Of a stretch of DNA of 64,000 nt, positions 8,650 to 56,926 are shown one piece after another. A model generated the notes under the pieces. That model saw only the letters and a list, made by a program, of their open reading frames with translations, had not been told where the DNA came from and ran no database searches. Both the position numbers and the translations under genes were made by a program. Positions within the stretch are counted from its first letter, which is position 1. Each line of letters starts with the position of its first letter. Source of the stretch: a virus; the IMG/VR virus record IMGVR_UViG_3300020463_000001, positions 124,001 to 188,000 of that record; one strand, given 5' to 3'.

Positions 8650-8919
8650 ATGAAGACTTTTTCTCAATTTTTAGAAGATGATTTAGACGAAGCGGTAAAA
8701 CGTAAAGTTGTTATCCGTGGCGGAAAACGCAAGATTAAGTTTAAGTCTGACAGGGCCGGATACAAAGTTGACGGCAATAAAAGAGAAGTCAAAATTTCTG
8801 CATCAGATAAAGTCAAAATGAGTTTGAGAAATAAAAAGTCTGCTCGAAAGAGAAAGGGCAAAGTTGCTATTTCTAATACTCGCAGAGCAAGGTCAATGGC
8901 CAAACGTACAGGAACATAG
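8650..8919 (+). CDS. 68: gp68-like prohead core protein
   Basis: An 89-residue, very basic protein (many K and R after residue 17) directly before the prohead protease, the place of gp68 in T4-like phages. Its first residues, MKTFSQFLEDDLDEA, resemble the capsid-targeting leader of T4 internal proteins (MKTYQEFIAEA) and contain possible gp21 cleavage points of L-x-E type. The basic body could neutralise DNA or the acidic gp67 and gp22 core. The name rests on synteny. Confidence 0.6.
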   Translation: MKTFSQFLEDDLDEAVKRKVVIRGGKRKIKFKSDRAGYKVDGNKREVKISASDKVKMSLRNKKSARKRKGKVAISNTRRARSMAKRTGT

Positions 8920-9617: not shown

Positions 9618-10682
9618 ATGGCTAATGAACTAGAAGTCAATGAAGTTGAAGAACTAGAGAATTCAGTAGAGTCTGAAGAAATTTCTGAAGAGTCTCAAGA
9701 CGAACTAGTTCAAGAAGTTTCTGAAGAACAAGCTGACGAAGCGGTAGAAGAAATTCTTGCCGAGTTAGACGAAGAAGAAACTTCTGAAGAAAGTGAAGAA
9801 GAAGAGTCTTTGGCAGAAGGCGGTTACGGCAAGAAAAAAATGAAAGAAGCCGACGATGAAGAAGACGAAGAAGAACCTAAGAATTCTTTTATGATGAAGA
9901 AGAAGGTCAAGAAAGAAGATATTGATGTATCAGAGCACATTGATGCAATGTTGTCTGGTCATGAATTATCAGAAGATTTCCAAGAAAAGGCTCGCACAAT
10001 TTTCGAAGCTGCAGTTCTAGAACAAGTAAACAAAGAAGTTGAAAAGATAGATCAACAGTATGAAGAAGATTTTGAGAAGTCAGTTCTTGAAGTCAGATCA
10101 CAAATTGCAGAAAAGGTAGATGAGTATCTATCTTATGTTGCTAAAGAGTGGTTGGAAGAGAATAAGGTTGTTGTTGAAAGCAGCCTTAAACTTGAAATCA
10201 TGGAAAATTTCATTTCTGGTATGAAGACAGTTTTCGAAGAAAATTATATCGAAGTCCCAGAAGAGAAAGCAGATTTGTATGCAGAAGCAGTTGCTGAAGC
10301 AGAACAAGTCAAAGAACAACTCAATGAAGCAATCGAAAAGAATGTTAAACTTTCTAAAGAAGTTGAAACTGTTCAGAAAGATGGAATCATTAGGGATGTC
10401 GTGGAAGGTATGACTATACAACAGGCTGATAAGATTCGTTCTTTGTCTGAAGGTGTAGAATTTACTTCTGCTGAAGATTTTGCTGAAAAGGTTAAAGTCA
10501 TTAAGGAAAATTATTTTCCAAGTGAAGAAACTGTTTCTAGTGAAGTTGTAGATGGCGAAGAAGAAGTTACTGCGGTTGAAGATTCTGAGGTTGTTCTTGA
10601 AGAACAGGCTTCTAAGAAAACTTCTGATCCTGTAATGGAGAACTACGCAAGAGCAATCTCAAGGTTCAGTAGAAAACAGTAA
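9618..10682 (+). CDS. 22: Major prohead scaffold protein gp22
   Basis: A 354-residue scaffold protein, larger than T4 gp22 (269). It is rich in Glu, Lys and Val, with a very acidic first ~75 residues and long predicted helices from ~100 to 300. It would form the internal core around which gp23 assembles and then be degraded by gp21. It lies between gp21 and gp23 with its own late promoter. The extra length is mostly the acidic N-terminal segment. Confidence 0.88.
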   Translation: MANELEVNEVEELENSVESEEISEESQDELVQEVSEEQADEAVEEILAELDEEETSEESEEEESLAEGGYGKKKMKEADDEEDEEEPKNSFMMKKKVKKEDIDVSEHIDAMLSGHELSEDFQEKARTIFEAAVLEQVNKEVEKIDQQYEEDFEKSVLEVRSQIAEKVDEYLSYVAKEWLEENKVVVESSLKLEIMENFISGMKTVFEENYIEVPEEKADLYAEAVAEAEQVKEQLNEAIEKNVKLSKEVETVQKDGIIRDVVEGMTIQQADKIRSLSEGVEFTSAEDFAEKVKVIKENYFPSEETVSSEVVDGEEEVTAVEDSEVVLEEQASKKTSDPVMENYARAISRFSRKQ

Positions 10683-10764: not shown

Positions 10765-12126
10765 ATGTATACAGAAATGCATTTGTCAGAGCAACTTCAA
10801 GAGAAGTGGAAGCCGGTAATCGAGCATCCCGATCTACCTAAGATCGAAGATTCTTACAAGAGAGCGGTAACTGCTATGCTTCTTGAAAACCAAGAAAAAG
10901 TTGCAAGAGAAGAAGCATCAATGTTGACTGAAGGGCCGATAAATGCAGTTGGTGGCGGTATGTCTCCAGTTGTCGGTGGTGAAGGCAACATTAAAGGTAT
11001 GGATCCAGTACTGATCTCATTGATCAGACGTTCTATGCCCAACCTGATGGCGTATGATGTTCTAGGTGTTCAACCTATGAGCGGCCCAACAGGTCTTATC
11101 TTCGCGATGAAATCACAATACGGCGATCAGGCCGGCGAAGCACTTTACGGCGAAGCAGATACTGCTTTCTCTGGTGCCTCAAGTCCTGTTCACAACGGAA
11201 CTGATCCATTCAGTGGTGTCGCAGTAACTGGTTCTGGCGCTTCTGCCGAACTTGATTACTCTGGTAGCGATTACACATCTGGAGGGCCCGCCGCTACTGC
11301 TAAGGCAGAAGCATTGGGAGACGGTACTGTAACTGGAATGGGTACAGGCGGTCACTTCAATCAGATGTCATTCTCAATCGATAGAGTATCTGTGACAGCG
11401 CAATCAAGAGCACTGAAAGCAGAATACACTATGGAATTGGCACAAGATCTGAAGGCAGTTCACGGTCTAGACGCTGAAAGCGAATTATCAAACATTCTTT
11501 CTTCAGAAATCACTGCTGAAATCAACAGAGAAGTTCTGAGAACAGTATACGCAGTTGCAAAGCCTGGCGCACAAGCTGGTGTAACTACGAAGGGTGTTTT
11601 TGATCTAGATGCTGACGCAGATGGTCGTTGGTCAGTAGAGAAGTACAAAGGTCTTCTTTACCAGATCGAAAGAGAAGCAAACGCAATCGCTAAAGAAACT
11701 CGTAGAGGAAAAGGTAACTTGGTTATCTGTTCTTCAGACGTTGCTTCGGCTCTCGCCATGTCAGGTGTACTAGATTACAACCCTGCGCTACAAACTAATC
11801 TTTCAGTTGATGACACAGGTCAAACTTTTGCCGGTGTTCTTAACGGAAGAATGAGAGTTTATATTGATCCTTACTTTACATCAACCTCTGGTTATGAGTT
11901 GTTGGTTGTAGGTTATAAGGGATCTTCACCTTATGATGCTGGTATTTTCTACTGCCCATACGTCCCATTACAAATGGTTCGCGCAGTGGGTGAAAATACT
12001 TTCCAACCTAAGATTGGATTCAAGACCCGATACGGAATTGTTGCAAACCCATTTGCATCAATGAGTTCTGGTTCAAACCAATACTACAGAAAGGTTGCCA
12101 TCTCAGGATTGACAGCAATCGGTTAA
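10765..12126 (+). CDS. 23: Major capsid protein gp23
   Basis: A 453-residue HK97-fold capsid precursor (T4 gp23 is 521; marine versions are shorter). The probable gp21 cleavage site is LTE-GPINAV, after E56, removing a helical propeptide. Conserved tracts include GMDPVLISLIRRSMPNLMAYD and, near the C-terminus, YRKVAISGLT. Its codon choice looks richer in C/G-ending codons than neighbouring genes, as expected for the most highly expressed protein. A late promoter precedes it and a strong terminator follows. Confidence 0.97.
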   Translation: MYTEMHLSEQLQEKWKPVIEHPDLPKIEDSYKRAVTAMLLENQEKVAREEASMLTEGPINAVGGGMSPVVGGEGNIKGMDPVLISLIRRSMPNLMAYDVLGVQPMSGPTGLIFAMKSQYGDQAGEALYGEADTAFSGASSPVHNGTDPFSGVAVTGSGASAELDYSGSDYTSGGPAATAKAEALGDGTVTGMGTGGHFNQMSFSIDRVSVTAQSRALKAEYTMELAQDLKAVHGLDAESELSNILSSEITAEINREVLRTVYAVAKPGAQAGVTTKGVFDLDADADGRWSVEKYKGLLYQIEREANAIAKETRRGKGNLVICSSDVASALAMSGVLDYNPALQTNLSVDDTGQTFAGVLNGRMRVYIDPYFTSTSGYELLVVGYKGSSPYDAGIFYCPYVPLQMVRAVGENTFQPKIGFKTRYGIVANPFASMSSGSNQYYRKVAISGLTAIG

Positions 12127-43067: not shown

Positions 43068-43075
43068 TATAAATA
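43068..43075 (+). promoter_or_regulatory. Late promoter (TATAAATA) for the 43098 cassette
   Basis: An exact late octamer 22 bases upstream of the ATG at 43098. It probably drives the closely packed genes down to the next late promoter at 48939. Confidence 0.85.
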
Positions 43076-43097: not shown

Positions 43098-44351
43098 ATG
43101 CACGATTTTACTGATTTCTTAACGGAAGCGAAAGGTGGAAAAAATCTACACCTAGAACATATAGAAGAAGAAATCATCAATCATGGAATTGATGGTGGAC
43201 GCGCTGCATTAAATTTTCTTCGTTCTCTTCGTAATATGCTCGCCGGAACATCAGGTTCTAGAGTTAATATGACCGTTAAGTGGGACGGAGCTCCAGCAAT
43301 ATTCGCCGGAGTTGATCCATCAGACGGCAAGTTCTTTGTCGCAAAGAAAAGTGTTTTCAATGTCAACCCAATACTTTATAAGAGCATTAAAGATATTAAT
43401 GATGATACTTTATCTGCCCAACTTGATTCCAAATTCAAAATAGCATTTAATGAGTTCAAGAAACTCAATATCAAAGGTGTCATACAGGGAGACTTGATGT
43501 TCACCGATGATGTCTCTACTACCAAGATAGATGGTAAAACCTATTATACATTTCAACCAAACACTCTAGTATATGCTGCAGAAGTAAATTCTGATCTTGG
43601 TAAACAAATTAATAAGGCCAAGATTGGAGTAGTTTGGCACACCACATATAAAGGAAGTGATCTACAAGATATGTCTGCATCATTTGGTGTCAATATATCC
43701 GGACTTAAAAAGTCTTCTTCTGTTTGGATGGACGATGCGACATATAAAGATGTCTCTGGTAGTGCGAAGTTTACTAAATCCGAAACCGATCAAGTGACTA
43801 AAATATTATCTGGCGTTGGAAGTTCATTCAGAAAAATTAAATCATCTGAATTAAGAAAGTTCTTATCTATGCAGGATAAGAGTTTTTCTAAGTCGAAGGT
43901 CGGCGGGTCATTCAAAACATATTTAAATCAATTCATCAAATCTGGGAATAATTTTTCTGTACAAAATGTCAAAAACCTAAATTATTCTATGTACGTTAAA
44001 AAGTATTACGATGAAAAAGTAATATCGAAATTGAAGTCTGCAAGGGGCAGAGAGGCAAAAGAACAAGAGAGAGATGAATTAGTAAAACAATTGATCTCGT
44101 ATGATAAATTAATAATAAACTTGGTAGAATTCATGCAAGGATTAGTTTCTGCGAAGTCAATTATTGTAACGAAGTTGAATAAAGTGAAACAACTTACCGA
44201 TATCTTTATAAGAACTTCAACTGGATATGAAGTAAGTAATCCGGAAGGATATGTTGCTATTGATAGGAGTGGTAAGGGTGCGGTAAAACTGGTCGATAGA
44301 TTAGAGTTTAGTTATAATAACTTTACTGCTGCGAAAAACTGGGATAAGTGA
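43098..44351 (+). CDS. Putative capsid-targeted protein with KxDG nucleotidyltransferase motif
   Basis: A 417-residue protein, probably DUF6267 from memory. The leader MHDFTDFLTE-A matches the T4 internal-protein leader (MKTYQEFIAE-A), with Glu at position 10 and an L-T-E site as in gp23 here. From ~60 the sequence reads TVKWDGAPAIFAG (K61-W-D63-G64), then FFVAKKS, IQGDLMF (~129-135) and KIGVVWHTTYKG (~175-186), which resemble motifs I, Ia, III and IV of RNA/DNA ligases and capping enzymes. Lys61 would be the adenylated residue. The C-terminal half is basic and helical. The start ATG 43098 follows AAAGGAA; an in-frame TTG at 43095 is less likely. Ligase activity is a hypothesis. Confidence 0.7.
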   Translation: MHDFTDFLTEAKGGKNLHLEHIEEEIINHGIDGGRAALNFLRSLRNMLAGTSGSRVNMTVKWDGAPAIFAGVDPSDGKFFVAKKSVFNVNPILYKSIKDINDDTLSAQLDSKFKIAFNEFKKLNIKGVIQGDLMFTDDVSTTKIDGKTYYTFQPNTLVYAAEVNSDLGKQINKAKIGVVWHTTYKGSDLQDMSASFGVNISGLKKSSSVWMDDATYKDVSGSAKFTKSETDQVTKILSGVGSSFRKIKSSELRKFLSMQDKSFSKSKVGGSFKTYLNQFIKSGNNFSVQNVKNLNYSMYVKKYYDEKVISKLKSARGREAKEQERDELVKQLISYDKLIINLVEFMQGLVSAKSIIVTKLNKVKQLTDIFIRTSTGYEVSNPEGYVAIDRSGKGAVKLVDRLEFSYNNFTAAKNWDK

Positions 44352-44352
44352 T

Positions 44353-44820
44353 ATGTACAAGTATAGAGTTGATGTGATAAAAGTTATTGATGGTGACACA
44401 GTAGATGTTGATATCGATTTAGGATTTGGTGTTTGGTTAAAGAAAGAACGAGTTAGATTATATGGAATTGACACTCCAGAGTCCAGAACCAGAGATTTAG
44501 AAGAAAAGAAATTTGGATTACTCGCAAAAGACTTCTTACAGGAAGCCTTAATGGGAGATAAATATGATGAGGTATTACTACAAACTCACAAAGACGAAAA
44601 GGGTAAGTTTGGTAGAATACTTGGTGAGTTTATTGTAGTAGATAACGCTGGTCATCCTACGTTTGAAGTAGAATTAAATTTAAACGATATGATGATAGAA
44701 CGCAAGATGGCGGTTGCCTATTACGGTCAGAGCAAAGATGATATTGAAGAAGGTCATCTAAAGAATAGAGAATACCTCTATGAGAATGGAACGGTAGAAT
44801 TTGAAATTGCGGAAAGTTAA
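44353..44820 (+). CDS. Thermonuclease (staphylococcal nuclease homolog)
   Basis: A 155-residue SNase-fold nuclease. DGDTVDVDIDLGF is the calcium-binding start, RLYGIDTPE supplies Arg35 and Glu43, and GKFGRILG supplies the second Arg (R88), the three classic catalytic residues. There is no signal peptide, so it acts in the cell or in the virion rather than being secreted. It has no capsid-type leader, unlike its neighbours. It overlaps the next gene by one base. Confidence 0.93.
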   Translation: MYKYRVDVIKVIDGDTVDVDIDLGFGVWLKKERVRLYGIDTPESRTRDLEEKKFGLLAKDFLQEALMGDKYDEVLLQTHKDEKGKFGRILGEFIVVDNAGHPTFEVELNLNDMMIERKMAVAYYGQSKDDIEEGHLKNREYLYENGTVEFEIAES

Positions 44821-46181
44821 TGAGAGATTATAAACAAATATTCCTCAACGAGAAACTCAAGAGAGTTGCACAGGACAAAGATATCGAAGATAAAGAAGGT
44901 ACTCAACCGAAGAAGTACTACGCTGGAGATATGTCTAAATCAACTAAAGATAAACGTGCAGCACACTTCAAAAAGAAGAAGTCTGGGCCTGCTCCAGGCG
45001 ATGCTGGTGCGAAAACAAAACCATCCAAACATACATTAAAGTATAAGAAGATGTATGGTGAGGAAGAGAACGAAGCAGTATCTCCTGCCCAACAGGCAGC
45101 GATTGCCATTGCAAAAAAAGAAAAGAAAAAACAACAAGAGAAACTTGATCCTAAGAAGGATGATGCCGGAGATTATATAGACGATTTCCGCAAGTCAGAC
45201 GCTCCTCAGTTTAAGGGTAAGTCTGACAAAAAGATTCAAAAGATGGCCATCGCAGCATATCTCAAAGACAAAGAAAAATCAGAAGAAGTAGATTTAGAAG
45301 AAGGCATAAATGATCCTTCTATATTCAAGGCAGTATTCCTCGCAGGAGGGCCCGGATCCGGTAAATCATTCATTGTAGGTCAAACTGGACTGGTTGCGCT
45401 TGGCATGAAACTTGTTAATTCAGATCCAGCATTTGAGAAGTTACTCAAGAAAGCAGGATTATCAACAACTCCAGATGATATAATGTCGCCGCAAGGACAA
45501 GCAGTCAGAGGTAAAGCAACTAAGCTGACAGACATTCAGAAGTCAATGTATATTAAGGGAAGATTGGGACTTGTCATCGACGGAACTGGGAAGAACTTCA
45601 AGAAGATATTAACACAAAAGAGATACTTAGATCAACTAGGATATGACTCTGCAATGATTTTTGTCAACACAGATCTTGAGACTGCATTAGAAAGAAACCG
45701 AAATCGTCCAAGACAATTGCCAGACGCAGAAGTAGAAAAGATGTGGAAGGGAGTTCAGAAGAATATCGGTAGATTCCAGAACACATTTAAGACAAATTTT
45801 TATGTGGTGGACAACTCTGACGGTGCAGATTTCGCAAGAGACTCAAAGAGAGTTTATAAAGATATTAAAACTTGGTCTACTAAACCTCCCAAGAATAGTA
45901 TCGGCAAAGATTGGATAACTCAGGTGAAGAAACAAAGAGGTATCAAGGAGGATTATTCTATGGACATATATGAAGATCAAGAATCGAAGATGGCATTAAC
46001 TCAACTCAGAGCCCTCGCAGATAAAGCAGAACAACTCTCAGATGAACTAATTGGTCTTCTGCGTGATTCTCCTAATCAGGATATCGAATTGGACGCATGG
46101 GTTCAGGCAAAGATTACTAAGGCAAGTGATTATATGACATCCGTCTATGATTACATGATGTATTCGGAGAAAGAAGATTGA
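44820..46181 (+). CDS. P-loop kinase-like protein with capsid-type leader
   Basis: A 453-residue protein. The first residues MRDYKQIFLNE-K give an L-N-E site at 9-11. Residues 30-150 are basic and disordered, with KRAAHFKKKK and AIAIAKKEKKKQQ. A second L-E-E site at 159-161 immediately precedes a folded P-loop domain, AVFLAGGPGSGKSF (Walker A 176-183), followed by VIDGTGKNF and RNRNRPRQLPDAEVEKMW, as in zeta-toxin or polynucleotide-kinase-like AAA_33 enzymes. The C-terminal ~80 residues form a helical module (DAWVQAKITKASDYM). Cleavage at the second site would release the kinase. Substrate unknown. Confidence 0.75.
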   Translation: MRDYKQIFLNEKLKRVAQDKDIEDKEGTQPKKYYAGDMSKSTKDKRAAHFKKKKSGPAPGDAGAKTKPSKHTLKYKKMYGEEENEAVSPAQQAAIAIAKKEKKKQQEKLDPKKDDAGDYIDDFRKSDAPQFKGKSDKKIQKMAIAAYLKDKEKSEEVDLEEGINDPSIFKAVFLAGGPGSGKSFIVGQTGLVALGMKLVNSDPAFEKLLKKAGLSTTPDDIMSPQGQAVRGKATKLTDIQKSMYIKGRLGLVIDGTGKNFKKILTQKRYLDQLGYDSAMIFVNTDLETALERNRNRPRQLPDAEVEKMWKGVQKNIGRFQNTFKTNFYVVDNSDGADFARDSKRVYKDIKTWSTKPPKNSIGKDWITQVKKQRGIKEDYSMDIYEDQESKMALTQLRALADKAEQLSDELIGLLRDSPNQDIELDAWVQAKITKASDYMTSVYDYMMYSEKED

Positions 46182-46501
46182 AAGACTTTAAACAATACAT
46201 GACAGAAAAAGTCAAGGTAGAAGTACAGAATCCACAAAGTCTTGAAGATTTCGAAGATCCTCAAGTATACTTTAATGGAATATATACATATAGTACTCTC
46301 AATATGAAGTTGAGGGGTTATGTGGATCAACTATCTCGCGCAGTCAAAATGAAAAACTGGAAACAAGCCGGAAGTCTTATGGAGAAGGGTGGGATGTCTA
46401 TGAATATTCCAGACCTCATAGAAGCAATTGAACAAGTTGAAAAGGAAATGGGTTCTAGGACATGGAAATCCAAGAGAACCAAAATGAAAAAGAAAGGATA
46501 A
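46178..46501 (+). CDS. Small protein with capsid-type leader
   Basis: A 107-residue protein. The start is TTG at 46178 overlapping the preceding stop, with GGAG nine bases upstream. The leader MKDFKQYMTE-K has the same spacing as the T4 internal-protein leader, with Glu at position 10. The rest is helical and basic, ending KSKRTKMKKKG. It could be an internal head protein. No known domain. Confidence 0.6.
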   Translation: MKDFKQYMTEKVKVEVQNPQSLEDFEDPQVYFNGIYTYSTLNMKLRGYVDQLSRAVKMKNWKQAGSLMEKGGMSMNIPDLIEAIEQVEKEMGSRTWKSKRTKMKKKG

Positions 46502-46504
46502 ATT

Positions 46505-46681
46505 ATGTGTGTTAGTGAAAAACAAGATTTAGTAAATACTCTGAGAAGAGAAATTGCTTATGCAGAGTCACAGGTTCGTCCATCTGCGACAGGAAATATT
46601 ATTACCGCAATCAGTTGGATGAAAACTAGAGTGGAAGAATTAGAAACACAACTCAACGAAGAGTACTTGGAAGCAATGTAA
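46505..46681 (+). CDS. 58-residue helical protein
   Basis: A short gene from ATG 46505 (ribosome site AAAGGA) to a TAA that overlaps the next ATG (TAATG). The 58 residues begin MCVSEKQDLVNTLRREIAYA and end with a helix, KTRVEELETQLNEEYLEAM. It looks like a small coiled coil. Its tight coupling to both neighbours supports that it is real. Function unknown. Confidence 0.65.
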   Translation: MCVSEKQDLVNTLRREIAYAESQVRPSATGNIITAISWMKTRVEELETQLNEEYLEAM

Positions 46682-47232
46682 TGAAAAGTTTCGCGTCTTA
46701 CAATAAGACTATATGTGAAGATTGCAGCGAAGCAATCCGATTTCATTTAGAGAATGATATACCATTCCTAGAGAATATATTTCGTATGGGTTCTGAAGGA
46801 TTTTTTGAATTCTTTATAGAGGCCAAAGGATTATATCATGAAGGTAAATTAGAACACCTAAATGAATCCGACATAGAGATATTAAATACCGACATAGGAG
46901 ACTTTGCGGAGTTTGAAGGCGAAGAAGTCCCACTGGATTTACCTATGTCAGAAGAAGAAAAAGATGTGGAACTGAATAAACCCAAGAGAGGCGGCAGTAA
47001 AAAATATTATGTTTATGTTAAGAATGATAAAGGAAATGTTATAAAGATTTCGTTTGGTGATGATACTGGACTCTCTGCAAAAATCAATGACCCCGAAGCA
47101 AGAAAATCCTTTAATGCTAGGCATAAATGTGCTCAAAAGAACGACAAAACAAAGGCCGGATACTGGGCTTGTCGTTTACCGAAGTATGCTAAATCATTGG
47201 GACTTTCTGGCGGGGGTAACTTCTTTTGGTAG
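46681..47232 (+). CDS. DUF5872-like conserved protein
   Basis: A 183-residue protein. The N-terminal half is acidic (FEGEEVPLDLPMSEEEKDVE). The C-terminal half has the basic compact motif KYYVYVKNDKGNVIKISFGD, then KSFNARHKCAQKNDKTKAGYWACRLPKYA, which I recall as the DUF5872 type, frequent in virion-associated proteins of marine myoviruses. The start MKSFASYNKT is only weakly leader-like. Overlaps the next gene by seven bases. Confidence 0.65.
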   Translation: MKSFASYNKTICEDCSEAIRFHLENDIPFLENIFRMGSEGFFEFFIEAKGLYHEGKLEHLNESDIEILNTDIGDFAEFEGEEVPLDLPMSEEEKDVELNKPKRGGSKKYYVYVKNDKGNVIKISFGDDTGLSAKINDPEARKSFNARHKCAQKNDKTKAGYWACRLPKYAKSLGLSGGGNFFW

Positions 47233-47501
47233 AACCATACGTTCAAACCTCAATAACATCAAATAAATTCCTCAGAACATTCCCAGAAACAGTCGATGAA
47301 GATTCTCTCGTATGGCATAGAGATATAAACACAAGACACATGAGAGTAATAGAAGTAGGAGATTGGTATTTTCAGAAAGATAATATTTTACCAGCAAAGT
47401 TAAAATTTGATGATGAGTTTATTATATGGGAAATGGAATATCATAGGTTAATAAAAAAAAGTGGCCACCTTATTATCGAAATTACTGAGTTCCGGAAATA
47501 A
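47226..47501 (+). CDS. Small cupin-like conserved protein
   Basis: A 91-residue protein with the recurring marine-phage pattern SLVWHRDINTRHMRVIEVGDW, DNILPAKL, and EYHRLIKKSGHLIIEITE, which suggests a small beta barrel such as a cupin fold. The start is TTG at 47226. It overlaps the preceding gene by seven bases. No catalytic role can be assigned. Confidence 0.6.
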   Translation: MVEPYVQTSITSNKFLRTFPETVDEDSLVWHRDINTRHMRVIEVGDWYFQKDNILPAKLKFDDEFIIWEMEYHRLIKKSGHLIIEITEFRK

Positions 47502-47523
47502 CGAACAGATAAATACAAGTACT

Positions 47524-47940
47524 ATGAGTAAAGAATACAAATACGAAGATATAGATTACGGTTTCACTGCCGTCGATGAAGACGAACTTGCGGAACTCCG
47601 ATCTGCGCCTCAAGAAGTCTCGGTCAAGATTGACGGTGTAGATAGTGAAATACAAAATCTTGGTATCAAAATACAAGAATTAGTAGAACTTCAGACAGAT
47701 ATTATGTCTGAGTTGGTCGATACGAAACAACTGTATCAGGAAAAACTGAGCGGATTAGATATAACCAGTGAAGTTACGGAAGATAAGTTAATGAAAGTAG
47801 AAAAACTTATTATGCCACTTCTTTATAATTTATTGAAGAACAAAGAGAAAGATTATATTTACTGGCCCAATCGTGAACCGATTATCAAAACTCAGATAGA
47901 AAAGATACTTGAAATAACAAGGACTTCCGATGAAGGATAA
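47524..47940 (+). CDS. Coiled-coil protein of unknown function
   Basis: A 138-residue protein starting at ATG 47524; upstream in-frame starts lie within the preceding gene. After a short acidic start, residues ~35-90 form a coiled coil (NLGIKIQELVELQTDIMSEL), and the C-terminus DYIYWPNREPIIKTQIEKIL is a tract I recall from marine T4-like phages. Overlaps the next gene by 11 bases. Probably a structural or assembly factor. Confidence 0.6.
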   Translation: MSKEYKYEDIDYGFTAVDEDELAELRSAPQEVSVKIDGVDSEIQNLGIKIQELVELQTDIMSELVDTKQLYQEKLSGLDITSEVTEDKLMKVEKLIMPLLYNLLKNKEKDYIYWPNREPIIKTQIEKILEITRTSDEG

Positions 47941-48934
47941 AGTAGTCTTCACATTCGGAAGATTTAATCCTCCAACAATAGGACATGAGAAGTTGTTGGA
48001 TAAAGTCTATGCGGTTGCTTCTAGAGAGGGGGCTGATTTCTTGGTGTTCCCTAGTCACTCTCAAAACCCAAAGAAAGATCCATTGGATTTCAGATCCAAG
48101 GTCAAATTTATGAAGAAGATGTTTCCGAAGTATTCTAAGAACATTATGTCAAATAATAAAGTCAAGACTGCGTTTAATGCTGTCAGTCTTCTTCATGAAC
48201 TGGGATACAAAGAAGCGTTAATGGTTGTGGGTGGAGATAGAGTATCAGAGTTTAATAGTGTCCTTAATAAGTATAATGGAGTTGAAGGCAGACATGGTTT
48301 CTATGACTTCGAAGGTGGAATCAAAATAGTATCTGCAGGAGAAAGAGATCCAGATGCGGAAGGTGTCTCCGGTATGTCTGCGTCTAAGATGAGAACAGCC
48401 GCTGCAGCAAATGACTATGACTCGTTTAAAAATGGATTGCCATCTAAGTTTAGAGGCGGAGACCTTCTATTTAAAATGTTGCGTAAGGCAATGAAAGTAG
48501 AAGAAACAGAATTAGGAATATTTCTTGGTTCTGATGTTAATACTTTCAGAGAATTTATAGAGTCTCCTACAGTAGAATCTATAGAAGTATTTAATGATAA
48601 GGAACTCATACAAGAATTTTATACCCCAGTTAATCTACAGAAGAGAGAATCATCTATCTCAGGTTTCAAGTCTTTTCTTAGCGAAGAGAATGTCGAAGAA
48701 GATTTTACTAATATTCCTTGGATTGATGATACTCTAGATAGATTGTTTAGAAGAAGTAGATATAAGATGGCGCTTCAATACTTTTTCAAGTTTTACGACA
48801 AAGATCCACAACATAATTCTAGAAATGCGTTAGATAGGGCCTCTAAAGTTTTGGGATTAGAACCTTTACCTCTTCAAAAATATGTCATATCTTTAATTAA
48901 AAAAGGTAAGATCCCGAAAAAGTACTCTTTCTAA
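47930..48934 (+). CDS. Nucleotidyltransferase (NMN/cytidylyltransferase-like) with C-terminal extension
   Basis: A 334-residue protein. The first ~185 residues form an HxGH-superfamily nucleotidyltransferase: TFGRFNPPTIGHEKLL (T-x-G-H), VVGGDRVSEF, and GMSASKMR, the equivalent of the ISSTxxR signature. NAD salvage or a sugar/nucleotide transfer reaction is possible. After a linker there is an internal segment SGFKSFLSE-E (245-253), like the capsid leader of the neighbouring genes, followed by an ~80-residue helical domain (IDDTLDRLFRRSRYKMALQ). It ends just before a late promoter. Confidence 0.8.
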   Translation: MKDKVVFTFGRFNPPTIGHEKLLDKVYAVASREGADFLVFPSHSQNPKKDPLDFRSKVKFMKKMFPKYSKNIMSNNKVKTAFNAVSLLHELGYKEALMVVGGDRVSEFNSVLNKYNGVEGRHGFYDFEGGIKIVSAGERDPDAEGVSGMSASKMRTAAAANDYDSFKNGLPSKFRGGDLLFKMLRKAMKVEETELGIFLGSDVNTFREFIESPTVESIEVFNDKELIQEFYTPVNLQKRESSISGFKSFLSEENVEEDFTNIPWIDDTLDRLFRRSRYKMALQYFFKFYDKDPQHNSRNALDRASKVLGLEPLPLQKYVISLIKKGKIPKKYSF

Positions 48935-48938
48935 AAAT

Positions 48939-48946
48939 TATAAATA
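48939..48946 (+). promoter_or_regulatory. Late promoter (TATAAATA) for the ~960-aa modular protein
   Basis: An exact late octamer five bases after the preceding stop codon. The predicted RNA start near 48952 gives a very short leader for the following gene. Confidence 0.82.
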
Positions 48947-48966
48947 TTGAGGATAAATATACCTAA

Positions 48967-51849
48967 ATGGGGATCGTTATGGAATCTGGTCACAATTCAT
49001 TCAAAAATTTCCTTGAGTGGCATAAGAAAGAAGGCGCAGAAAGAAGAGTCCGTGGTGGAGATAAGAGGAAACCTCATAACAAAGAGTTAGAGGAATCTGA
49101 TGAAGCACTTAAAGGCAAAGCCGAAAAAAGTGGTATCTCTCTTGGAATTCTAAAACAAGTCTACAATCGTGGAATGGCTGCATACAAGACAGGTCATCGC
49201 CCCGGCACAACTGCACAACAATGGGCACTTGCCCGTGTCAACTCCTTTATCACCAAAGGAAAAGGAACATGGGGTGGTGCGGATAAAGATCTCGCTGCTA
49301 AAGTCGGTGGTGGAACCAAGAAAGAACAAGCTCCTTGTTGGGATGGATATAAACAAATAGGAATGAAAAAGAAAGGGAACAAGATGGTTCCCGATTGTGT
49401 CCCAGAGTCTTTTAGTGGAGCAGAGAAACAACCATTCAAATCCAAGGCTGGTGCTGGAGAATTTGCATCCAAAGAACTAGAAAAGAAATATCGCAAAGGA
49501 ACTCCTGGCCAACCAAAGAAAAAGATTGAAGATGCCACGATAACAGAAAAACTAGATTATGATTTGTATCACAAAACATTTTCTGCCGCAATGCAACATT
49601 CTTACAAGGTGGCAAAGAAAAGAGGATTCAAAGTATCTGCAGATTCGATAGATACACAGGTCGCATTTGGCCCTCGCAAACCATCAAACGGAAAGATGAA
49701 CAGTTATCATTTAGACTTGGATGGAGAAAGAAATAAGAAACTTCGCGTTCAAGTATACAACACCGGAAAGTCATACGAACTGAATATGTATATTGAGTCT
49801 ATGGAACTTAATGAGAGAATGTCCAGAAAAGACTTTGAAAAACTGAAGAAAGGCGATAAGGTAGAAATAAATTACGGTAGCACCATGTCTGGTTCTACGA
49901 CTAGAGAGTTTTCTGTAGTCAATAGATCCAGAAGTGCGAAGTATGATGTTGATAAGATAAGACTACAACCGACAGACAAGACTGGCGGAATGAAATTCTT
50001 TCTCTATAGCAGAAAGGGTGGAGATGCCACCCTCGCACTTGGAGATATGGGCGCATCCATTAAGAGTTATAGATTGACAGAAGAAGTCGAACTTCGAGAG
50101 AAGAAGTACAGTCCTTCTGATGAAAAGAAAATCCAAAAAACAATTAGTATTATGAAGAAGTATCCAGACAATAAAAAGAAGTCGGATAAAGAATTAAGAG
50201 ACGGTGCGATTGAATATCTATTCCACAATAGAACTATGAAAAGAAAGAAGGTAGAAACTACAGAAGGTTTCACCACATCACAGATTGGTAAACTGAAGAA
50301 GGCATACTCTACTGTTTCTACTGTAGATCCTACTAGTTCTTCTTATAAAAAATTAACAAAGATGATTAAGTCTCAGGATAAAGAAGCTCTGACTCAAATT
50401 GCAAAGGCAAAGGTTAACTTTGTCTCTCAGATAGCTGCAACAGAACTTCGAAGAACTCACAACATTAAACTGAAGGCTTCTGAATTTATGGAGGAAATTG
50501 AGATGAATGAGTCAGAATTTAAGACTGTCAAAGGAAAAGATGGTAAGAAGTATGACGTTAAGATTTCTATGGACGGCAAAAAGTTCAAGTTTAGAGTGAC
50601 GGATAAGACCGGAAATGTAGGCGCATTTAAGGTTATATCTCTAGGCCAGGCTGCAAAACTCTTTGAGAACCTAGAAGAACTTATAGATATCACTGAAGAA
50701 AGTGGTATCGAACTTGCTCGTAAAATTGTTGACAGAAAACAACACATGAAGGGAATTGATTTGACCACTGCTGGTCTTATTCTACAAGTTTATGATAAAG
50801 TAAACGATAAGAATAAATCGAAGATGGAGAAGATGTCTGGAAAACAACTTGCTTCTGTTGTCTACAAAATGCTTTCTAAAGAAGAAGTTCAAGAGGAACA
50901 TGATATGTATGGATATAAATTATTCAATGAAGAAGTTGAACTTGATGAGAAATTGAAAGTTGGGGATAAGGTCAAGTTCAAGAAAGGCATCGACCCAAAG
51001 ACTGCTAGAAGTTATGGAGACGCAATAAGGAAGTCTGGCAAGGTTGTGAAGGACTACGGTGATGGTGATGTCAAAGTAAACTTTGGTGGTAATAATGATA
51101 AGTCTGTTGATGCTAAACTATTAGTAAAAGAAGAAGTAGAACTAGAAGAAGCGACAGGAAAAGAAATTGCTGCACTCATGAAGAAATCCAAGACTATGAA
51201 AGGATTTGCTGCTAAAGTTGCGAAGATGAAGACTGTCACCGTAGATGATCTAGAAGATATGCTTCCCGATTATGTTTCTGGTGGAGATATCAGAAAGATG
51301 TTCGAAGCTCATTGTAGTTCTAAGAAAATGAAGAAAGAAGGAATTACCGATGAAGATGTTGCACAGTTTATTGGTGCCGCGTCTGCTGCTAAGAAGGCTG
51401 GAAAGAAAAATTTCTCATTTGGTGGTAAGTCTTATCCAGTAACGATCTCTGGAGATACTGCAAAGAAGGTTCTTGAGGACTCTCTTGAGGAATCCTTGCA
51501 AGAAAAGATGGATCCTACAGAACACGTTGAGAAAAATAAAGAAACTGGGATGTATTGTGTCTATGATGCCAACGGGAAGAAAGTAAAAGAATTTGAGGAT
51601 AAGGAAGAAGCAGATGACTATGCTATCAAGAATCACGAAAAATTGATGGCTGTAAAGGAGTCTAAATATACAGACATAGAAGAATTAATTGAGTCTTCTG
51701 ATAAAAAAGACGCAGCAGAGATGTCGAAGTTAGTGAAAGAATTGCAACCAAAAATTTCTAACTCTGAATTGAAGAAAGAGGTTCATGCAATGGCAATGGA
51801 AAAATATAAGAACAAAACTAGAGCGAAGAAGATCGCCAGTTTTGCATAA
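48967..51849 (+). CDS. Modular ~960-residue protein, possible prohead-protease polyprotein
   Basis: A 960-residue Lys/Glu-rich protein made of small modules. An in-frame ATG at 48979 has the better ribosome site (GGGGA) and gives MESGHNSFKNFLEWH. Residues ~56-110 (SLGILKQVYNRGMAAYKTGH) are DUF5824-like from memory; ~123-146 hold CWDGYKQIGMKKKG. Two SH3/KOW-like modules follow (FEKLKKGDKVEINYG and KLKVGDKVKFKKG), plus several helical ones. Modules are separated by acidic linkers with L-x-E: MELNE (279-283), EVELRE (373-378), EVELDE (656-661), EVELEE (723-728), SLEESLQE (839-846). This layout suggests cutting by gp21 inside the prohead. Confidence 0.7.
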   Translation: MGIVMESGHNSFKNFLEWHKKEGAERRVRGGDKRKPHNKELEESDEALKGKAEKSGISLGILKQVYNRGMAAYKTGHRPGTTAQQWALARVNSFITKGKGTWGGADKDLAAKVGGGTKKEQAPCWDGYKQIGMKKKGNKMVPDCVPESFSGAEKQPFKSKAGAGEFASKELEKKYRKGTPGQPKKKIEDATITEKLDYDLYHKTFSAAMQHSYKVAKKRGFKVSADSIDTQVAFGPRKPSNGKMNSYHLDLDGERNKKLRVQVYNTGKSYELNMYIESMELNERMSRKDFEKLKKGDKVEINYGSTMSGSTTREFSVVNRSRSAKYDVDKIRLQPTDKTGGMKFFLYSRKGGDATLALGDMGASIKSYRLTEEVELREKKYSPSDEKKIQKTISIMKKYPDNKKKSDKELRDGAIEYLFHNRTMKRKKVETTEGFTTSQIGKLKKAYSTVSTVDPTSSSYKKLTKMIKSQDKEALTQIAKAKVNFVSQIAATELRRTHNIKLKASEFMEEIEMNESEFKTVKGKDGKKYDVKISMDGKKFKFRVTDKTGNVGAFKVISLGQAAKLFENLEELIDITEESGIELARKIVDRKQHMKGIDLTTAGLILQVYDKVNDKNKSKMEKMSGKQLASVVYKMLSKEEVQEEHDMYGYKLFNEEVELDEKLKVGDKVKFKKGIDPKTARSYGDAIRKSGKVVKDYGDGDVKVNFGGNNDKSVDAKLLVKEEVELEEATGKEIAALMKKSKTMKGFAAKVAKMKTVTVDDLEDMLPDYVSGGDIRKMFEAHCSSKKMKKEGITDEDVAQFIGAASAAKKAGKKNFSFGGKSYPVTISGDTAKKVLEDSLEESLQEKMDPTEHVEKNKETGMYCVYDANGKKVKEFEDKEEADDYAIKNHEKLMAVKESKYTDIEELIESSDKKDAAEMSKLVKELQPKISNSELKKEVHAMAMEKYKNKTRAKKIASFA

Positions 51850-51859
51850 GTGAGGTATC

Positions 51860-52219
51860 ATGGGTAAGTTTACGCCGCCTAAGTGGGCAAAATTCGCAGT
51901 CGCGACAGATAAGGGATGGGAAGATTCCAGAACTGGAGAACTCTTAGTTTCTATGAGAAACTTAAAGACCGATATGGAAGCCGCCGCAGCACCTGTCGTT
52001 GCAGAACCAGAGCCTGTTGAAGAACCAGTGGTCGAAGAGAAACCCAAGAAGAAACGCGAACAGAAAAATCATTTCGCAGCAAAACCAGAATCGCCAGACT
52101 TTGAATCAATGACAAAAGAAGAACTGGAACTCTGGGCAAGAGAACACATAGATGTCGAGTTGGACAGAAGAAAGACTAAGAAAAGTCTTATCGAAGAAAT
52201 ACAGGAAAATTTAAAGTAG
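51860..52219 (+). CDS. Small protein with Rho-N/SAP-like C-terminus
   Basis: A 119-residue protein. The N-terminus GKFTPPKWAKFAVATDKGWED is followed by an Ala/Pro/Glu-rich linker (~40-75) and a C-terminal helical segment MTKEELELWAREHIDVELDRRKTKKSLIEEI. That segment resembles Rho N-terminal or SAP-type helix-extended-loop-helix domains that bind nucleic acid. It sits between the modular protein and the fibre genes and is probably a virion component. Confidence 0.6.
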   Translation: MGKFTPPKWAKFAVATDKGWEDSRTGELLVSMRNLKTDMEAAAAPVVAEPEPVEEPVVEEKPKKKREQKNHFAAKPESPDFESMTKEELELWAREHIDVELDRRKTKKSLIEEIQENLK

Positions 52220-52238: not shown

Positions 52239-52451
52239 ATGGCAGTATCACAATTTGGTCAAGAGAACTATATCGCAAACGGCCTAGGAATCCCTGCCCA
52301 CGATTTTATAGAAAACTCATACGAATCCTCTACTAATAATTTGATTGCAGTTGAATACAAACTTGGAGGTTCGTCCGGTACAGTGGTTGCCCGTTTAGAT
52401 TTTACATATGATTCATCCGGAAACTTACTGACTGTTGAAAGGACGGCGTAA
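52239..52451 (+). CDS. Small protein upstream of the tail fibre
   Basis: A 70-residue protein with an excellent ribosome site (AGGAGG). It is beta-rich with alternating hydrophobic strands (LIAVEYKLGGSSGTVVARLDF). Its last base overlaps the fibre start, so the two are translationally coupled. It may be a fibre-associated or baseplate-attachment protein. Not recognised beyond this. Confidence 0.65.
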   Translation: MAVSQFGQENYIANGLGIPAHDFIENSYESSTNNLIAVEYKLGGSSGTVVARLDFTYDSSGNLLTVERTA

Positions 52452-55400
52452 TGAGTTATAGATATAATCCACTATCCGGAAAGATAGAATTTGTAGGAAT
52501 CTCAACCTCAGATGGAACATCTCTCGAAGCAACTATCAATGAGAAAGTTGCAAACTTAGTAGATTCTGCACCAACTACATTGGACACGCTCAATGAGTTG
52601 GCTGCTGCGTTGAATAATGATCCTAACTTTGCGACATCTACCGCGACATTGCTTGGCGAAAAGGCACTCGCAACTGATTTGGCGTCTTTGGCTGCGTCTC
52701 TGAACCAAGTTGCAACATCTGGTTCTTATGCAGATTTGACCGGCACTCCTACTTTGGTTAATATTGCAACATCTGGTTTATATGCGGATTTAACTGGTGC
52801 TCCCGATTTGTCTGATGTCGCAACATCTGGTTCTTACGCCGACTTGACCGGAACTCCTACTAATGTTTCTGATTTTACAAATGATGAAGGATTTATCACT
52901 GATTATACTGTAACAGAATCTGACGTAACAGGACATGAGGCGTCACTAACTTTAACTGAATCACAGATTAGTGATTTACAATCTTATTTAACTACAGTTG
53001 CATTTGCAGATTTAACATCTAAACCAACCACTGTCTCTGGTTATGGAATTACTGATGCATTTGATGGAGATTATGGTTCACTGACAAATAAACCAGATCT
53101 TTTTGACGGCGCATATTCTAGTTTATCCGGAGCTCCCACTAATGTTTCTACATTTACAAACGATTCTGGATATATCACTGGTTATACCGTCACTGAATCT
53201 GATGTTACTGGTCATGAGTCTGCACTCACCATAACTGAATCTCAAATATCTGACTTGGGATCATACTTAGTTGCTGCAGATTTATCATCTTATGCTACAC
53301 AAACATATGTAAATGCCCAAGGATTTATTACTGGTTATACCGTCACTGAATCTGATGTTACTGGTCATGAGTCTGCACTCACCATAACTGAATCTCAAAT
53401 ATCTGATTTGACACCATATTTAGTTTCCGCCGATCTGAATGGATATGCGACAGAAACCTTTGTTGGTTCGCAGGGATATATCACTGGTTATGCAGTCACT
53501 GAATCTGATGTTACTGGCCACCAAACCGCATTATCAATTACAGAATCACAGATTAGTGATTTACAATCTTATTTAACTACAGTTGCATTTGCAGATTTAA
53601 CATCTAAACCAACCACTGTCTCTGGTTATGGAATTACTGATGCATTTGATGGAGATTATGGTTCACTGACAAATAAACCAACAATACCTACCGTCCCAAC
53701 AACGGTGAGTTCTTTCACTAATGATTCTGGATATATTACAGGATATACTGTTACTCAGGATGATCTTTCTGGATTAACTATAACTGAATCTCAAATAACA
53801 GATTTGGGAGCTTATCTAGTTGCGTCTGATTTATCAACATATGCACTGACAACGTATGTAGACGCTCAAGTTGCTGGAGTTGTAAATTCTGCTCCGGAAA
53901 CATTAAATACCTTAAATGAACTGGCAACTGCCCTTGGAAATGATCCAGACTTTGCCACATCAACTGCTAATTTAATTGGCACAAAGGCAAACACTGCGGA
54001 TTTGTCTTCTGTCGCAACATCCGGTGCATACGCAGATTTAAGTGGTGTTCCTTCTTTGTTTGACGGCGCATATTCTAGTTTATCTGGAGCTCCCACTAAT
54101 GTTTCTACATTTACAAACGATTCTGGATATTTAACAACAGTTTCTTTTGATGATCTGTCTTCTTCCCCGACAACTGTCTCTGGTTATGGAATTACCGATG
54201 CGTTCTCAGGAGCATATGGAGATTTGACTGGTGTTCCTACTAATATTTCTACATTCACAAATGACTCAGGGTATTTAACTACTATATCTTATGCAGAAGT
54301 AACTGGTAAACCAACATTATTTGATGGTGCATATTCTAGTTTGTCTGGTGTTCCTACTAATATTTCTGATTTTACAAACGATTCTGGATATTTAACAACA
54401 GTTGCATTTGCAGATTTAACATCCAAACCAACCACTGTTTCGGGCTACGGAATCACCGATGCCTTTGATGGTGCATATTCTAGTTTATCCGGAGCTCCCA
54501 CTAATGTTTCTACATTTACAAATGACTCTGGTTATTTAACAACAGTTTCCTTCGAAGACTTAACATCAAAACCAACGACTATCGATGGTTATGGAATTAC
54601 TGATGCTTTTGATGGTGCATATTCTAGTTTATCTGGTGTCCCTACTACTGTTTCTACATTCGCAAATGACTCAGGGTATTTAACAACAGTTGCATTTGCA
54701 GACTTAACTTCTAAACCAACAACTGTTTCTGGTTACGGAATCACTGATGCATTTGATGGTGCGTATTCTAGTTTATCTGGAGCTCCCACTAATGTTTCTA
54801 CATTTGCAAATGACTCTGGCTATTTAACAACAGTTGCATTTGCAGATTTAACTTCTAAACCAACTACTATATCTGGTTATGGAATCACAGATGCATTTGA
54901 TGGAGATTATACTAATTTAACAAATAGACCAACTATACCGACTGTCCCAACTGCATTAAGTTCTTTTTCTAATGATACTAACTTTATCACTCTAGACGAA
55001 TCTCAATCTGGAGTCAGTGTTACCAGCGTATCCGCAAGTGGCTCCGGTTCACTTAACTATAATAATTCTAGTGGCGTATTTACATTTGCTCCTGCAGATT
55101 TGAGTTCTTATCTAGTTGCGTCTGATTTATCAACTTATGCATTAAAGACTTATGTTGATACTCAGGTTGCTGGTGTAGTAAGTTCTGCTCCAGAAACTTT
55201 GGATACTTTGAATGAATTGGCGGCCGCGTTAGGAGACGATCCAAACTTTGCAACAACAGTATCAAATCAGATTGGTACAAAGGCTGAATTGGGCGACTTT
55301 AGTGTTTCTACTGTTGCTGAAAGTGGTGCCGGATCTCTTAACTATAATAATGCTGGAGTATTTACATTTGCTCCTGCAGATCTAAGTTCTTATTTAACAA

Positions 55401-56926
55401 CAGTTGCGTTTGCAGATTTAACATCTAAACCAACCACTGTCTCTGGCTACGGAATTACTGATGCATTTGATGGAGATTATAATAGTCTTACAAATCAACC
55501 AGTAATCCCCGAAGGTGCAGATCTTACAGGGTATGCAACAGAAATTTATGTTAATGATCAGGGTTTTATCACAGGAATCTCATTCGCAAATGTATCCGCA
55601 AAACCAACTACTATTGCTGGTTATGGAATAACTGATGCCTTCTCTGGTGCATATGGAGATTTGACTGGAGCTCCTACTTTATTTGACGGTGCATATTCAT
55701 CGCTTACAGATGCACCTACTGCATTAAGTAGTTTTTCTAACGATACAAACTTTATTGATTTGACCAGAGTAAGTGTCTCCAGTGTCGCTGCAAGTGGTTC
55801 TGGTTCTCTTAACTATAATAACGCAAATGGAGTATTTACATTCTCTCCTGCAGATTTGAGTTCTTATTTGACTTCTTCTGATCTATCAACATACGCAACA
55901 GAGTCTTTTGTCTCTACTCAAGTTGCAAATGTTGTTAATTCTGCGCCAGAGGCATTAAATACTCTTAATGAACTTGCTGATGCTTTGGGAGATGATCCAA
56001 ATTTTGCAACAACTATTTCAACTCAAATAGGAACTAAGGCAGCTCTTGGAGATTTGGATGTCAACACCGTATCTTCAAGTGGTTCTGGTTCTCTTAATTA
56101 TGATAGTTCTACTGGTGCGTTTACATTTGCACCAGCAGATTTGAGTTCGTTTTTAACTTCTTATACCGAGACAGATCCAGTATTTACTGCCCATCCTTCC
56201 TCTGGAATTACGACATTCCACATCCAACAATGGAATACTGCATATACTTGGGGAGACCATAGTACTGTAGGATATTTAACTACAGAGACACAATCAGACT
56301 ATAATCAAACAGATAGTAGTGCTGTAGATTTTATCAAGAACAAACCTTCTTTGTTTGACGGTGATTATGATTCTTTGACTAATAAACCATCTTTATTTGA
56401 TGGCGATTATGGAAGTTTGAGCAATCAACCGTCACTATTTTCTGGTGCATATGCGGATTTATCTGGAAAACCTACTATCCCATCAGCACAAGTTCAATCA
56501 GATTATGATCAGACAGATGATACTGCGGTAGATTTTATTAAGAATAAACCAACATTATTTGATGGCGACTACAGTTCTCTGACTAATCCGCCTTCACTAT
56601 TCGATGGGGATTATGGTTCATTGACTAATACACCTTCTCTATTCGATGGGGATTATGATAGTTTAAGTAATAAACCTACATTGTTTGATGGAGACTATAC
56701 AAACTTAACAAACCAGCCAACCATACCAACTAACAATAATGAGTTGACTAATGGTGCTGGTTATCTTGCTTTAGTTTCTGTACCATCAACATCTAAGGGA
56801 GCGTCAGGAGATGCCTCTGGAGATGTCGCGATGGATAATGATTATATATATAGATGTACTGCGAATTATACTGATGGAAATGCCGATATTTGGAAGAGAG
56901 TAGAATTCTCAACTGATACTTGGTAA
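52451..56926 (+). CDS. Long repeat-rich tail fibre protein
   Basis: A 1491-residue fibre. The N-terminal ~75 residues (SYRYNPLSGKIEFVGIS, then NLVDSAPTTLDTLNELAAAL) form the base; that Asn-Glu-Leu module recurs near residues 480, 910 and 1160. The shaft consists of ~20-35-residue repeats with GYGITDAF (nine copies), FDGAYSSLSGAPTN and FTNDSGYLTTV. The C-terminus (SGDVAMDNDYIYRCTANY, ending WKRVEFSTDTW) is a conserved tip seen in other marine phage fibres. It would mediate host attachment, like T4 gp34/gp37. No chaperone gene is recognised next to it. Confidence 0.9.
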   Translation: MSYRYNPLSGKIEFVGISTSDGTSLEATINEKVANLVDSAPTTLDTLNELAAALNNDPNFATSTATLLGEKALATDLASLAASLNQVATSGSYADLTGTPTLVNIATSGLYADLTGAPDLSDVATSGSYADLTGTPTNVSDFTNDEGFITDYTVTESDVTGHEASLTLTESQISDLQSYLTTVAFADLTSKPTTVSGYGITDAFDGDYGSLTNKPDLFDGAYSSLSGAPTNVSTFTNDSGYITGYTVTESDVTGHESALTITESQISDLGSYLVAADLSSYATQTYVNAQGFITGYTVTESDVTGHESALTITESQISDLTPYLVSADLNGYATETFVGSQGYITGYAVTESDVTGHQTALSITESQISDLQSYLTTVAFADLTSKPTTVSGYGITDAFDGDYGSLTNKPTIPTVPTTVSSFTNDSGYITGYTVTQDDLSGLTITESQITDLGAYLVASDLSTYALTTYVDAQVAGVVNSAPETLNTLNELATALGNDPDFATSTANLIGTKANTADLSSVATSGAYADLSGVPSLFDGAYSSLSGAPTNVSTFTNDSGYLTTVSFDDLSSSPTTVSGYGITDAFSGAYGDLTGVPTNISTFTNDSGYLTTISYAEVTGKPTLFDGAYSSLSGVPTNISDFTNDSGYLTTVAFADLTSKPTTVSGYGITDAFDGAYSSLSGAPTNVSTFTNDSGYLTTVSFEDLTSKPTTIDGYGITDAFDGAYSSLSGVPTTVSTFANDSGYLTTVAFADLTSKPTTVSGYGITDAFDGAYSSLSGAPTNVSTFANDSGYLTTVAFADLTSKPTTISGYGITDAFDGDYTNLTNRPTIPTVPTALSSFSNDTNFITLDESQSGVSVTSVSASGSGSLNYNNSSGVFTFAPADLSSYLVASDLSTYALKTYVDTQVAGVVSSAPETLDTLNELAAALGDDPNFATTVSNQIGTKAELGDFSVSTVAESGAGSLNYNNAGVFTFAPADLSSYLTTVAFADLTSKPTTVSGYGITDAFDGDYNSLTNQPVIPEGADLTGYATEIYVNDQGFITGISFANVSAKPTTIAGYGITDAFSGAYGDLTGAPTLFDGAYSSLTDAPTALSSFSNDTNFIDLTRVSVSSVAASGSGSLNYNNANGVFTFSPADLSSYLTSSDLSTYATESFVSTQVANVVNSAPEALNTLNELADALGDDPNFATTISTQIGTKAALGDLDVNTVSSSGSGSLNYDSSTGAFTFAPADLSSFLTSYTETDPVFTAHPSSGITTFHIQQWNTAYTWGDHSTVGYLTTETQSDYNQTDSSAVDFIKNKPSLFDGDYDSLTNKPSLFDGDYGSLSNQPSLFSGAYADLSGKPTIPSAQVQSDYDQTDDTAVDFIKNKPTLFDGDYSSLTNPPSLFDGDYGSLTNTPSLFDGDYDSLSNKPTLFDGDYTNLTNQPTIPTNNNELTNGAGYLALVSVPSTSKGASGDASGDVAMDNDYIYRCTANYTDGNADIWKRVEFSTDTW
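52958..53095 (+). repeat. 138-bp exact direct repeat, copy 1 (tail fibre)
   Basis: Within the fibre gene. It is identical base for base to 53543-53680, 585 bases downstream and in the same frame. It encodes a segment including LTTVAFADLTSKPTTVSGYG. Confidence 0.9.
53177..53253 (+). repeat. 77-bp exact direct repeat, copy 1 (tail fibre)
   Basis: Identical to 53330-53406, 153 bases downstream and in frame. It encodes TGYTVTESDVTGHESALTIT. Confidence 0.85.
53330..53406 (+). repeat. 77-bp exact direct repeat, copy 2 (tail fibre)
   Basis: Second copy of the 77-bp repeat at 53177-53253. Confidence 0.85.
53543..53680 (+). repeat. 138-bp exact direct repeat, copy 2 (tail fibre)
   Basis: Second copy of the 138-bp repeat at 52958-53095. 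Recombination between the copies would delete 195 codons without a frameshift. Confidence 0.9.

Follow-up and report, generated by a model that had tools for sequence, protein, structure and literature searches.

A gene cassette of a T4-like phage (43098-52219) was found to encode proteins that begin with a short leader resembling the capsid-targeting sequence (CTS) of the T4 internal proteins. The conclusion that these proteins are tagged for the head appears well supported; they would bind to the prohead core, be cut by the protease gp21 and be delivered with the DNA. Capsid-targeted packaging had been proposed in a sequence-only reading of the same DNA, and the proposal gained support from conservation of the leader on unrelated protein bodies and from the virion proteomes of leader-bearing relatives. 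The leader pattern, the conservation of particular leader columns and the spread of the leader over unrelated bodies were observed in a phage that also encodes gp21, gp22 and gp23. Packing of the cassette proteins into the head is probable. We infer core binding, gp21 cleavage after the leader glutamate, injection and a role in the host, injection being likely once packaging is granted. The window, i.e. the whole stretch of DNA analysed, comprises 64,000 nucleotides (positions 124001-188000 of a 200,733-base IMG/VR record), and the cassette features, their promoters and the head genes located below lie on the + strand.

The cassette, its promoters and the head genes

The phage is related to the Kyanoviridae (cyanophages, pelagiphage HTVC008M, methylophage Melnitz). 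A megablast search with the cassette against phages gave no match. The cassette lies between gp41 (41077) and gp61 (59194), and homologous cassettes occupy the same gp41-gp61 slot in S-SM1, S-SZBM1 and S-CRM01. Late promoters had been proposed at 43068 and 48939, and the T4-type octamer TATAAATA was found at both, at 43068-43075 (30 nt upstream of 43098) and at 48939-48946 (28 nt upstream of 48967). Of the 17 copies of TATAAATA in the window, 16 lie on the + (coding) strand, and further copies are located upstream of gp18, gp19, gp20, gp22 and gp23, the late promoters of the cassette being of the same type as those of the head genes. Overall enrichment of ATAAATA was rejected as promoter evidence (25 copies vs 23 expected); only strand bias and placement upstream of late genes are informative for a late promoter.

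A gp21-type prohead protease (8922-9569; phrog_207, E=6e-77) and a gp22 scaffold (core) protein (9618-10682; phrog_237, E=3e-72) are encoded in the window together with [LI]xE sites. By inspection, the gp23 major head protein (10765-12126; phrog_138) has a putative maturation site, ASMLTE/GPINAVGG (10924-10932; a slash marks the predicted cut here and below), of the same [LI]xE type as the leaders. The sequence MKTFSQFLEDDLDEA of a gp68-like core protein (8650-8919; phrog_3503, E=0.001) also resembles the leaders.

The DUF6267 protein (43098-44351; PF19782, Pfam E=5e-100) had been described as a ligase-like KxDG protein. A KWDG motif is indeed present and invariant among homologs, and the likewise ligase-like EGYVAID and VKLVDR are well conserved; a ligase was not confirmed by searches with either sequence or fold. 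A fold search of the AF2 model (pLDDT 74) against the PDB gave no significant match, and the ligase idea stays motif-based. A PDB sequence search with three cassette proteins gave nothing useful. Next are an SNase-like protein (44353-44820; Pfam) and a protein (44820-46181; pI 9.3) in which a basic module precedes the P-loop kinase that had been claimed, of Zeta toxin/AAA_33 type according to Pfam. An internal EVDLEE/G site (45285-45302; linker scan) immediately precedes the kinase domain. This kinase is encoded by a separate gene in HTVC008M, whose product starts with MIPFILKE/G. A 107-aa protein (46178-46501) and a GGSKKYYVYVK-module protein (46681-47232; phrog_7595) are followed by the proposed nucleotidyltransferase (47930-48934), which was recognised as a cytidylyltransferase/NMNAT-like protein by a match to Pfam CTP_transf_like (PF01467, E=2e-5, above cutoff) and by the nucleotide-binding signature GRFNPPTxGH. 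The signature is retained in relatives, which are annotated as cytidyltransferase or NadR-like, and the protein has profile homology to the virion protein family T4-GC190. The predicted modular protein (48967-51849; likely start 48979) is a lysine-rich product of 960 aa with DUF5824 and other modules. A 119-aa protein with a SAP-like C-terminus (51860-52219) gave a weak match to phrog_8608 (prohead protease inhibitor, E=4e-6); the match is C-terminal and is probably to the SAP-like motif, and the gene lies directly behind the putative gp21 substrate. Several cassette proteins are strongly basic, with pI values of 9.2-9.4. Confidence in the enzyme assignments, made from profiles and motifs, is moderate.

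Leaders and their conservation

Four leader-like segments had been reported in the cassette and all were present. The DUF6267 protein starts with MHDFTDFLTE/A (43098-43127; ATG at 43098-43100), with the cut predicted after Glu10. The kinase fusion starts with MRDYKQIFLNE/K (44820-44852), a variant longer by one residue with Glu at 11, and two relatives (L091, L095) retain EIFLRE/KL. The 107-aa protein starts from TTG with MKDFKQYMTE/K (46178-46207), and the leader was found in 7 of 12 members of its family. Judged by a T4-type leader (an aromatic residue at 4, an aromatic or hydrophobic one at 7, Leu or Ile at 8 and Glu at 10), the leaders at 43098 and 46178 agree fully, the latter with Met at 8, and that at 44820 is shifted by one. 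The fourth segment, SGFKSFLSE/E (48659-48685), is internal and comprises residues 244-252 of the 47930 protein; in relatives it reads SGFKHFLPE, SGFNSFLKE or SGFKSFLIE, according to the same FxxFLxE rule. The window's own copy of this cytidyltransferase has no N-terminal leader. As a feature of the whole cassette the pattern held in part: it was found at 43098, 44820 and 46178, was only degenerate at 46681 and 48979, and was absent from the SNase gene (44353) and from the 47461 gene. The homolog of the 46681 protein in phage C48C1 has an intact leader, MKKFKQYIDE. In the same phage the start of the cytidyltransferase gene (L004:6951-8360) is annotated too far downstream (7017), and an upstream in-frame start gives the leader MIKNFSQYLLE.

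Conservation was concentrated in particular leader columns. Among 25 DUF6267 homologs, columns 4, 8 and 10 had entropies of 0.25, 0.74 and 0.24 bit, and columns 2, 3, 5, 6, 7 and 9 were variable (1.5 to 2.8 bits). All of 80 cyanophage GC190 cytidyltransferases start with MK[KSN]F[SN]AFLxE/A, the residue preceding Glu being free. In the T4 IPIII leader, residues 4 and 7 matter for targeting and residues 8 and 10 for processing (PMC9026906). The T4 record gives MKTYQEFIAE/A as the leader of IPII and IPIII and FGSFLTE/A at the gp23 site. The conserved columns agree with what mutations of residues 4, 7, 8 and 10 showed in T4. In this comparison of homologs, which the sequence-only reading had suggested as a check, many unrelated bodies retained the leader at the positions that are critical in T4, and at the level of sequence the match to the T4 capsid-targeting sequence appears specific. 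The idea that T4-like phages use the CTS to load proteins of various kinds has already been put forward for T4 (PMC9026906).

The leader-bearing bodies include DUF6267 (PF19782) and DUF5824 proteins, several proteins without a family, an adenylate kinase (L165:4106), a RimK-like ATP-grasp protein (L033:7257), a HAD acid-phosphatase-like protein (L023:12206) and HD_4 hydrolases (L130:2056-2622, L110:9508-10302) with the leader MISFKQYISE or MKRFKTYINE. The HD_4 Pfam family includes MESH1/SpoT-like enzymes, and a packaged HD_4 nucleotide hydrolase would make an early effector that can be tested. The products of S-CRM01 g127-g131, which lie in the gp41-gp61 slot, have the leader-like starts MKLFNQFFKE, LSLDSFIKE (after a short extension), MKKLDQFLTE, MISFDQFLSE and MNFSEFLE. 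The DUF6267 proteins of S-SM1, S-SZBM1 and S-CRM01 are without a leader. So are the cytidyltransferases of the jumbo phages 121Q, CBB and PA5oct, and the tag is therefore not tied to the enzyme family. Several public phage records (KM507819.1 gene 418, KF156340.1) wrongly label cytidyltransferase-like genes "ribonucleotide reductase A".

Virion proteomes and alternative explanations

Data on virions of relatives were taken from the text of open-licence papers. A protein of the T4-GC190 family is reported there from purified S-SM1 virions (PMC3037559), and in a scan of the whole S-SM1 genome SSM1_190 was the only real gene with a leader. The S-SZBM1 cytidylyltransferase _140, which starts with MRFRQFIIE/A, was detected in virions according to the text and table of PMC9146016. 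The leaderless DUF6267 protein S-SZBM1_141, adjoining _140, is absent from that text and table, and S-SZBM1_191 and _192 have good leaders, yet are missing from the MS list given there. For S-CREM2, the virion proteins named in the article include ORFs 6, 13, 14, 136 and 154 (PMC10665884). The leaders of the MS-detected enzymes are MKDFDSFLEE (SAM hydrolase), MKRFDAFLTE (APH-like kinase) and MKNFSSFLTE (cytidylyltransferase), and ORF13 and ORF136, also detected, start with MKDLHSFLTE and MQTFSMFFSE; by the published list, all five of these proteins with good leaders were detected. When all called S-CREM2 ORFs were compared with that list, 6 of the 8 leader matches were in it (Fisher p=0.001; p=0.006 with an F/Y-only pattern). 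The MS-detected S-CREM2 Cas9 (ORF12, L255:7704-10313, OR473000) has FASFMAE/A from residue 19. N-termini homologous to that of ORF12 keep a similar segment, LSLDSFIKE/A in S-CRM01 g128 and FSNFLKE/A in S-N03. An S-CRM01 kinase, reported in virions in the literature covered, starts with MISFDQFLSE.

The sequence-only reading knew of no description of such a capsid-targeted set. This stood for the leader as a targeting signal, since no description of the leader or of capsid targeting in cyanophages was found in the main text of the open-licence papers covered. It did not stand for the presence of cytidyltransferase and kinase-like proteins in virions, which these papers had published, with entry into the host speculated upon.

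Short N-termini could resemble a loose pattern by chance, and sporadic matches to the loose pattern were seen elsewhere in the genome and one, antisense, in S-SM1. Clear matches on plausible genes among the 250 ORFs of the whole phage genome were those at 43098, 44820 and 46178. In 171 sources (related loci and the window), 274 of 2369 ORFs matched the leader pattern at a possible start vs about 31 with shuffled N-termini, and with one ORF per body cluster 18-25 of 621 matched vs 3-9 after shuffling. A control with methionines inside the same proteins is stricter than shuffling: in the same sources the strict leader was found on 184 of 1645 distinct + ORFs, in 24 of 403 body clusters, vs 14 of 9308 internal methionines. 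Leader frequencies are inflated by the sampling of loci via cassette genes, so the resulting 11% of N-termini (vs 0.15% of internal methionines) is not a genome-wide figure; counting by cluster gives the fairer measure. The column-specific conservation also speaks against chance, an explanation already refuted for the families of 43098 and GC190 and of negligible probability overall.

The leader could also be an ordinary N-terminal helix or a signal of a different kind, such as one for binding to a membrane or a replication complex, with detection in virions caused by contamination with abundant late proteins. CsCl preparations can carry contaminants, and in their article the S-CREM2 authors allow for contamination and call for verification (PMC10665884). 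Such an origin is nevertheless very unlikely: unrelated bodies share the same conserved residues, which end in a gp21-type [LI]xE site, leader-bearing ORFs are over-represented in virion MS, and the leaderless DUF6267 protein beside the detected leader-bearing gene was not detected according to the published text and table. Packaging via the leader could on the other hand serve structural or DNA-associated internal proteins with no enzymatic role in the host, T4 scaffold-derived internal peptides being internal and without such a role. The strongly basic proteins and the lysine-rich modules that dominate the 960-aa protein would fit this explanation, which is considered unlikely, since many proteins behind the tag can be recognised as enzymes and have conserved motifs (adenylate kinase, HD_4, ATP-grasp, SAM hydrolase, Cas9).

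Predicted processing and proposed role in infection

The 960-aa protein contains four EVELxE-type linkers vs 0.17 expected; no other ORF of the genome has more than one. At the linker EVELRE (50083-50100) an extra module is inserted in relatives, in some of which it is bounded at EVELRE/K by VELDE or VELEE and by ELQE or ELEE. The linker scan also gave EIEMNE (50494-50511). The clearest sign of modularity came from alignment with relatives, in which a 67-aa module was seen between the linkers EVELDE and EVELEE (50932-51150 with both linkers); five relatives are without the module, which is flanked by EEVELDE/ and EEVELEE/, and one linker together. Edges of homologous modules fell at [LI]xE sites in 34% of cases vs 13% under circular shifts (p=0.005). 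The boundary test was not significant for the kinase protein alone, and the AF2 model of the 960-aa protein (pLDDT 42) was uninformative on the linkers. LxE density alone was rejected as evidence of processing because an unrelated repeat protein (52451) is also LxE-rich; the only informative signs are the E[VIL]x[LIM]xE linker and where it lies. The repeat protein (52451-56926; 1491 aa, likely a tail fibre) has a significant excess of LxE (13 vs 4.4 expected) and no other signs of processing. The 960-aa protein looks like a gp21-processed polyprotein, and the natural reading of the linkers would be that gp21 cuts the kinase fusion and the 960-aa precursors into modules in the prohead.

In the proposed mechanism, the cassette genes would be expressed late and their products tagged for the head. 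The first 10-11 residues would bind the gp22-containing prohead core, as in T4 IPII and IPIII, through the aromatic residue at 4, the aromatic or hydrophobic residue at 7, Leu/Ile/Met at 8 and Glu at 10. gp21 would cut after the leader Glu, and at further [LI]xE sites would divide the 960-aa protein and the kinase fusion into separate modules. The mature enzyme would stay in the head and reach the host together with the DNA. T4 IPI acts against a restriction system. The company in which the tag is found in relatives (SAM hydrolase, Cas9, kinases, NMNAT-like protein) fits early host takeover or counter-defence, and a host role of the tagged set would probably be of this kind.

The mechanism class is known from T4. 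IPI, IPII and IPIII (Mullaney and Black; PMC9026906) likewise have a ten-residue leader with aromatic residues at 4 and 7, Ile/Leu at 8 and Glu at 10, followed by Ala or similar, and the leader is common to unrelated bodies, expression is late and gp21, gp22 and gp23 are encoded. The cassette differs from the T4 internal proteins in that its cargo is made up of enzymes as well as modular proteins, encoded in a slot fixed between gp41 and gp61; the internal leader copy of the 47930 protein and the polyprotein-like linkers are features not described for them. The published cyanophage virion enzymes (T4-GC190, APH-like kinase, SAM hydrolase, Cas9) have the 47930 family and the cassette slot in common with the window and were detected in purified virions; the articles give no targeting signal or processing site in their text and leave contamination possible (PMC3037559, PMC9146016, PMC10665884). 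N-terminal signals or propeptides are also present on head-packaged, ejected proteins in P1 (DarB; PMC9024508) and in the giant phages SPN3US and phiKZ (PMC5694885), in the latter two with cleavage after Glu as predicted for the cassette. No sequence similarity was seen between these signals and the cassette leaders. P1 appears to be without a separate scaffold, and in SPN3US the motif is AxE and most propeptides are long, unlike the cassette leaders. New are the extension to an enzyme cassette of Kyanoviridae, a link that would explain the published virion enzymes, the internal leader copy and the polyprotein arrangement.

It can be proposed, tentatively and at slightly less than even chance, that Kyanoviridae keep a dedicated gp41-gp61 locus for injected proteins, in which the T4-type tag has moved onto ever-changing enzymes and large lysine-rich polyproteins are cut by gp21 in the prohead into several small effectors, one gene thus giving several proteins that reach the host as infection begins. 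T4-like cyanophages, pelagiphages and methylophages abound in the ocean, and a readable leader predicts their cargo from sequence: NMNAT-like enzyme, kinases, DUF6267, SAM hydrolase and even a phage Cas9. Packaging and injection of Cas9, if real, would mean that a nuclease protein is delivered along with the phage DNA. For one published set of virion enzymes, left as possible contaminants, the leader turns the question into a sequence prediction, and it gives the mature N-termini to be expected in existing MS data. It also points to a tag by which reporter proteins of choice might be loaded into such heads, and the cassette is a natural place to seek early-acting counter-defence proteins.
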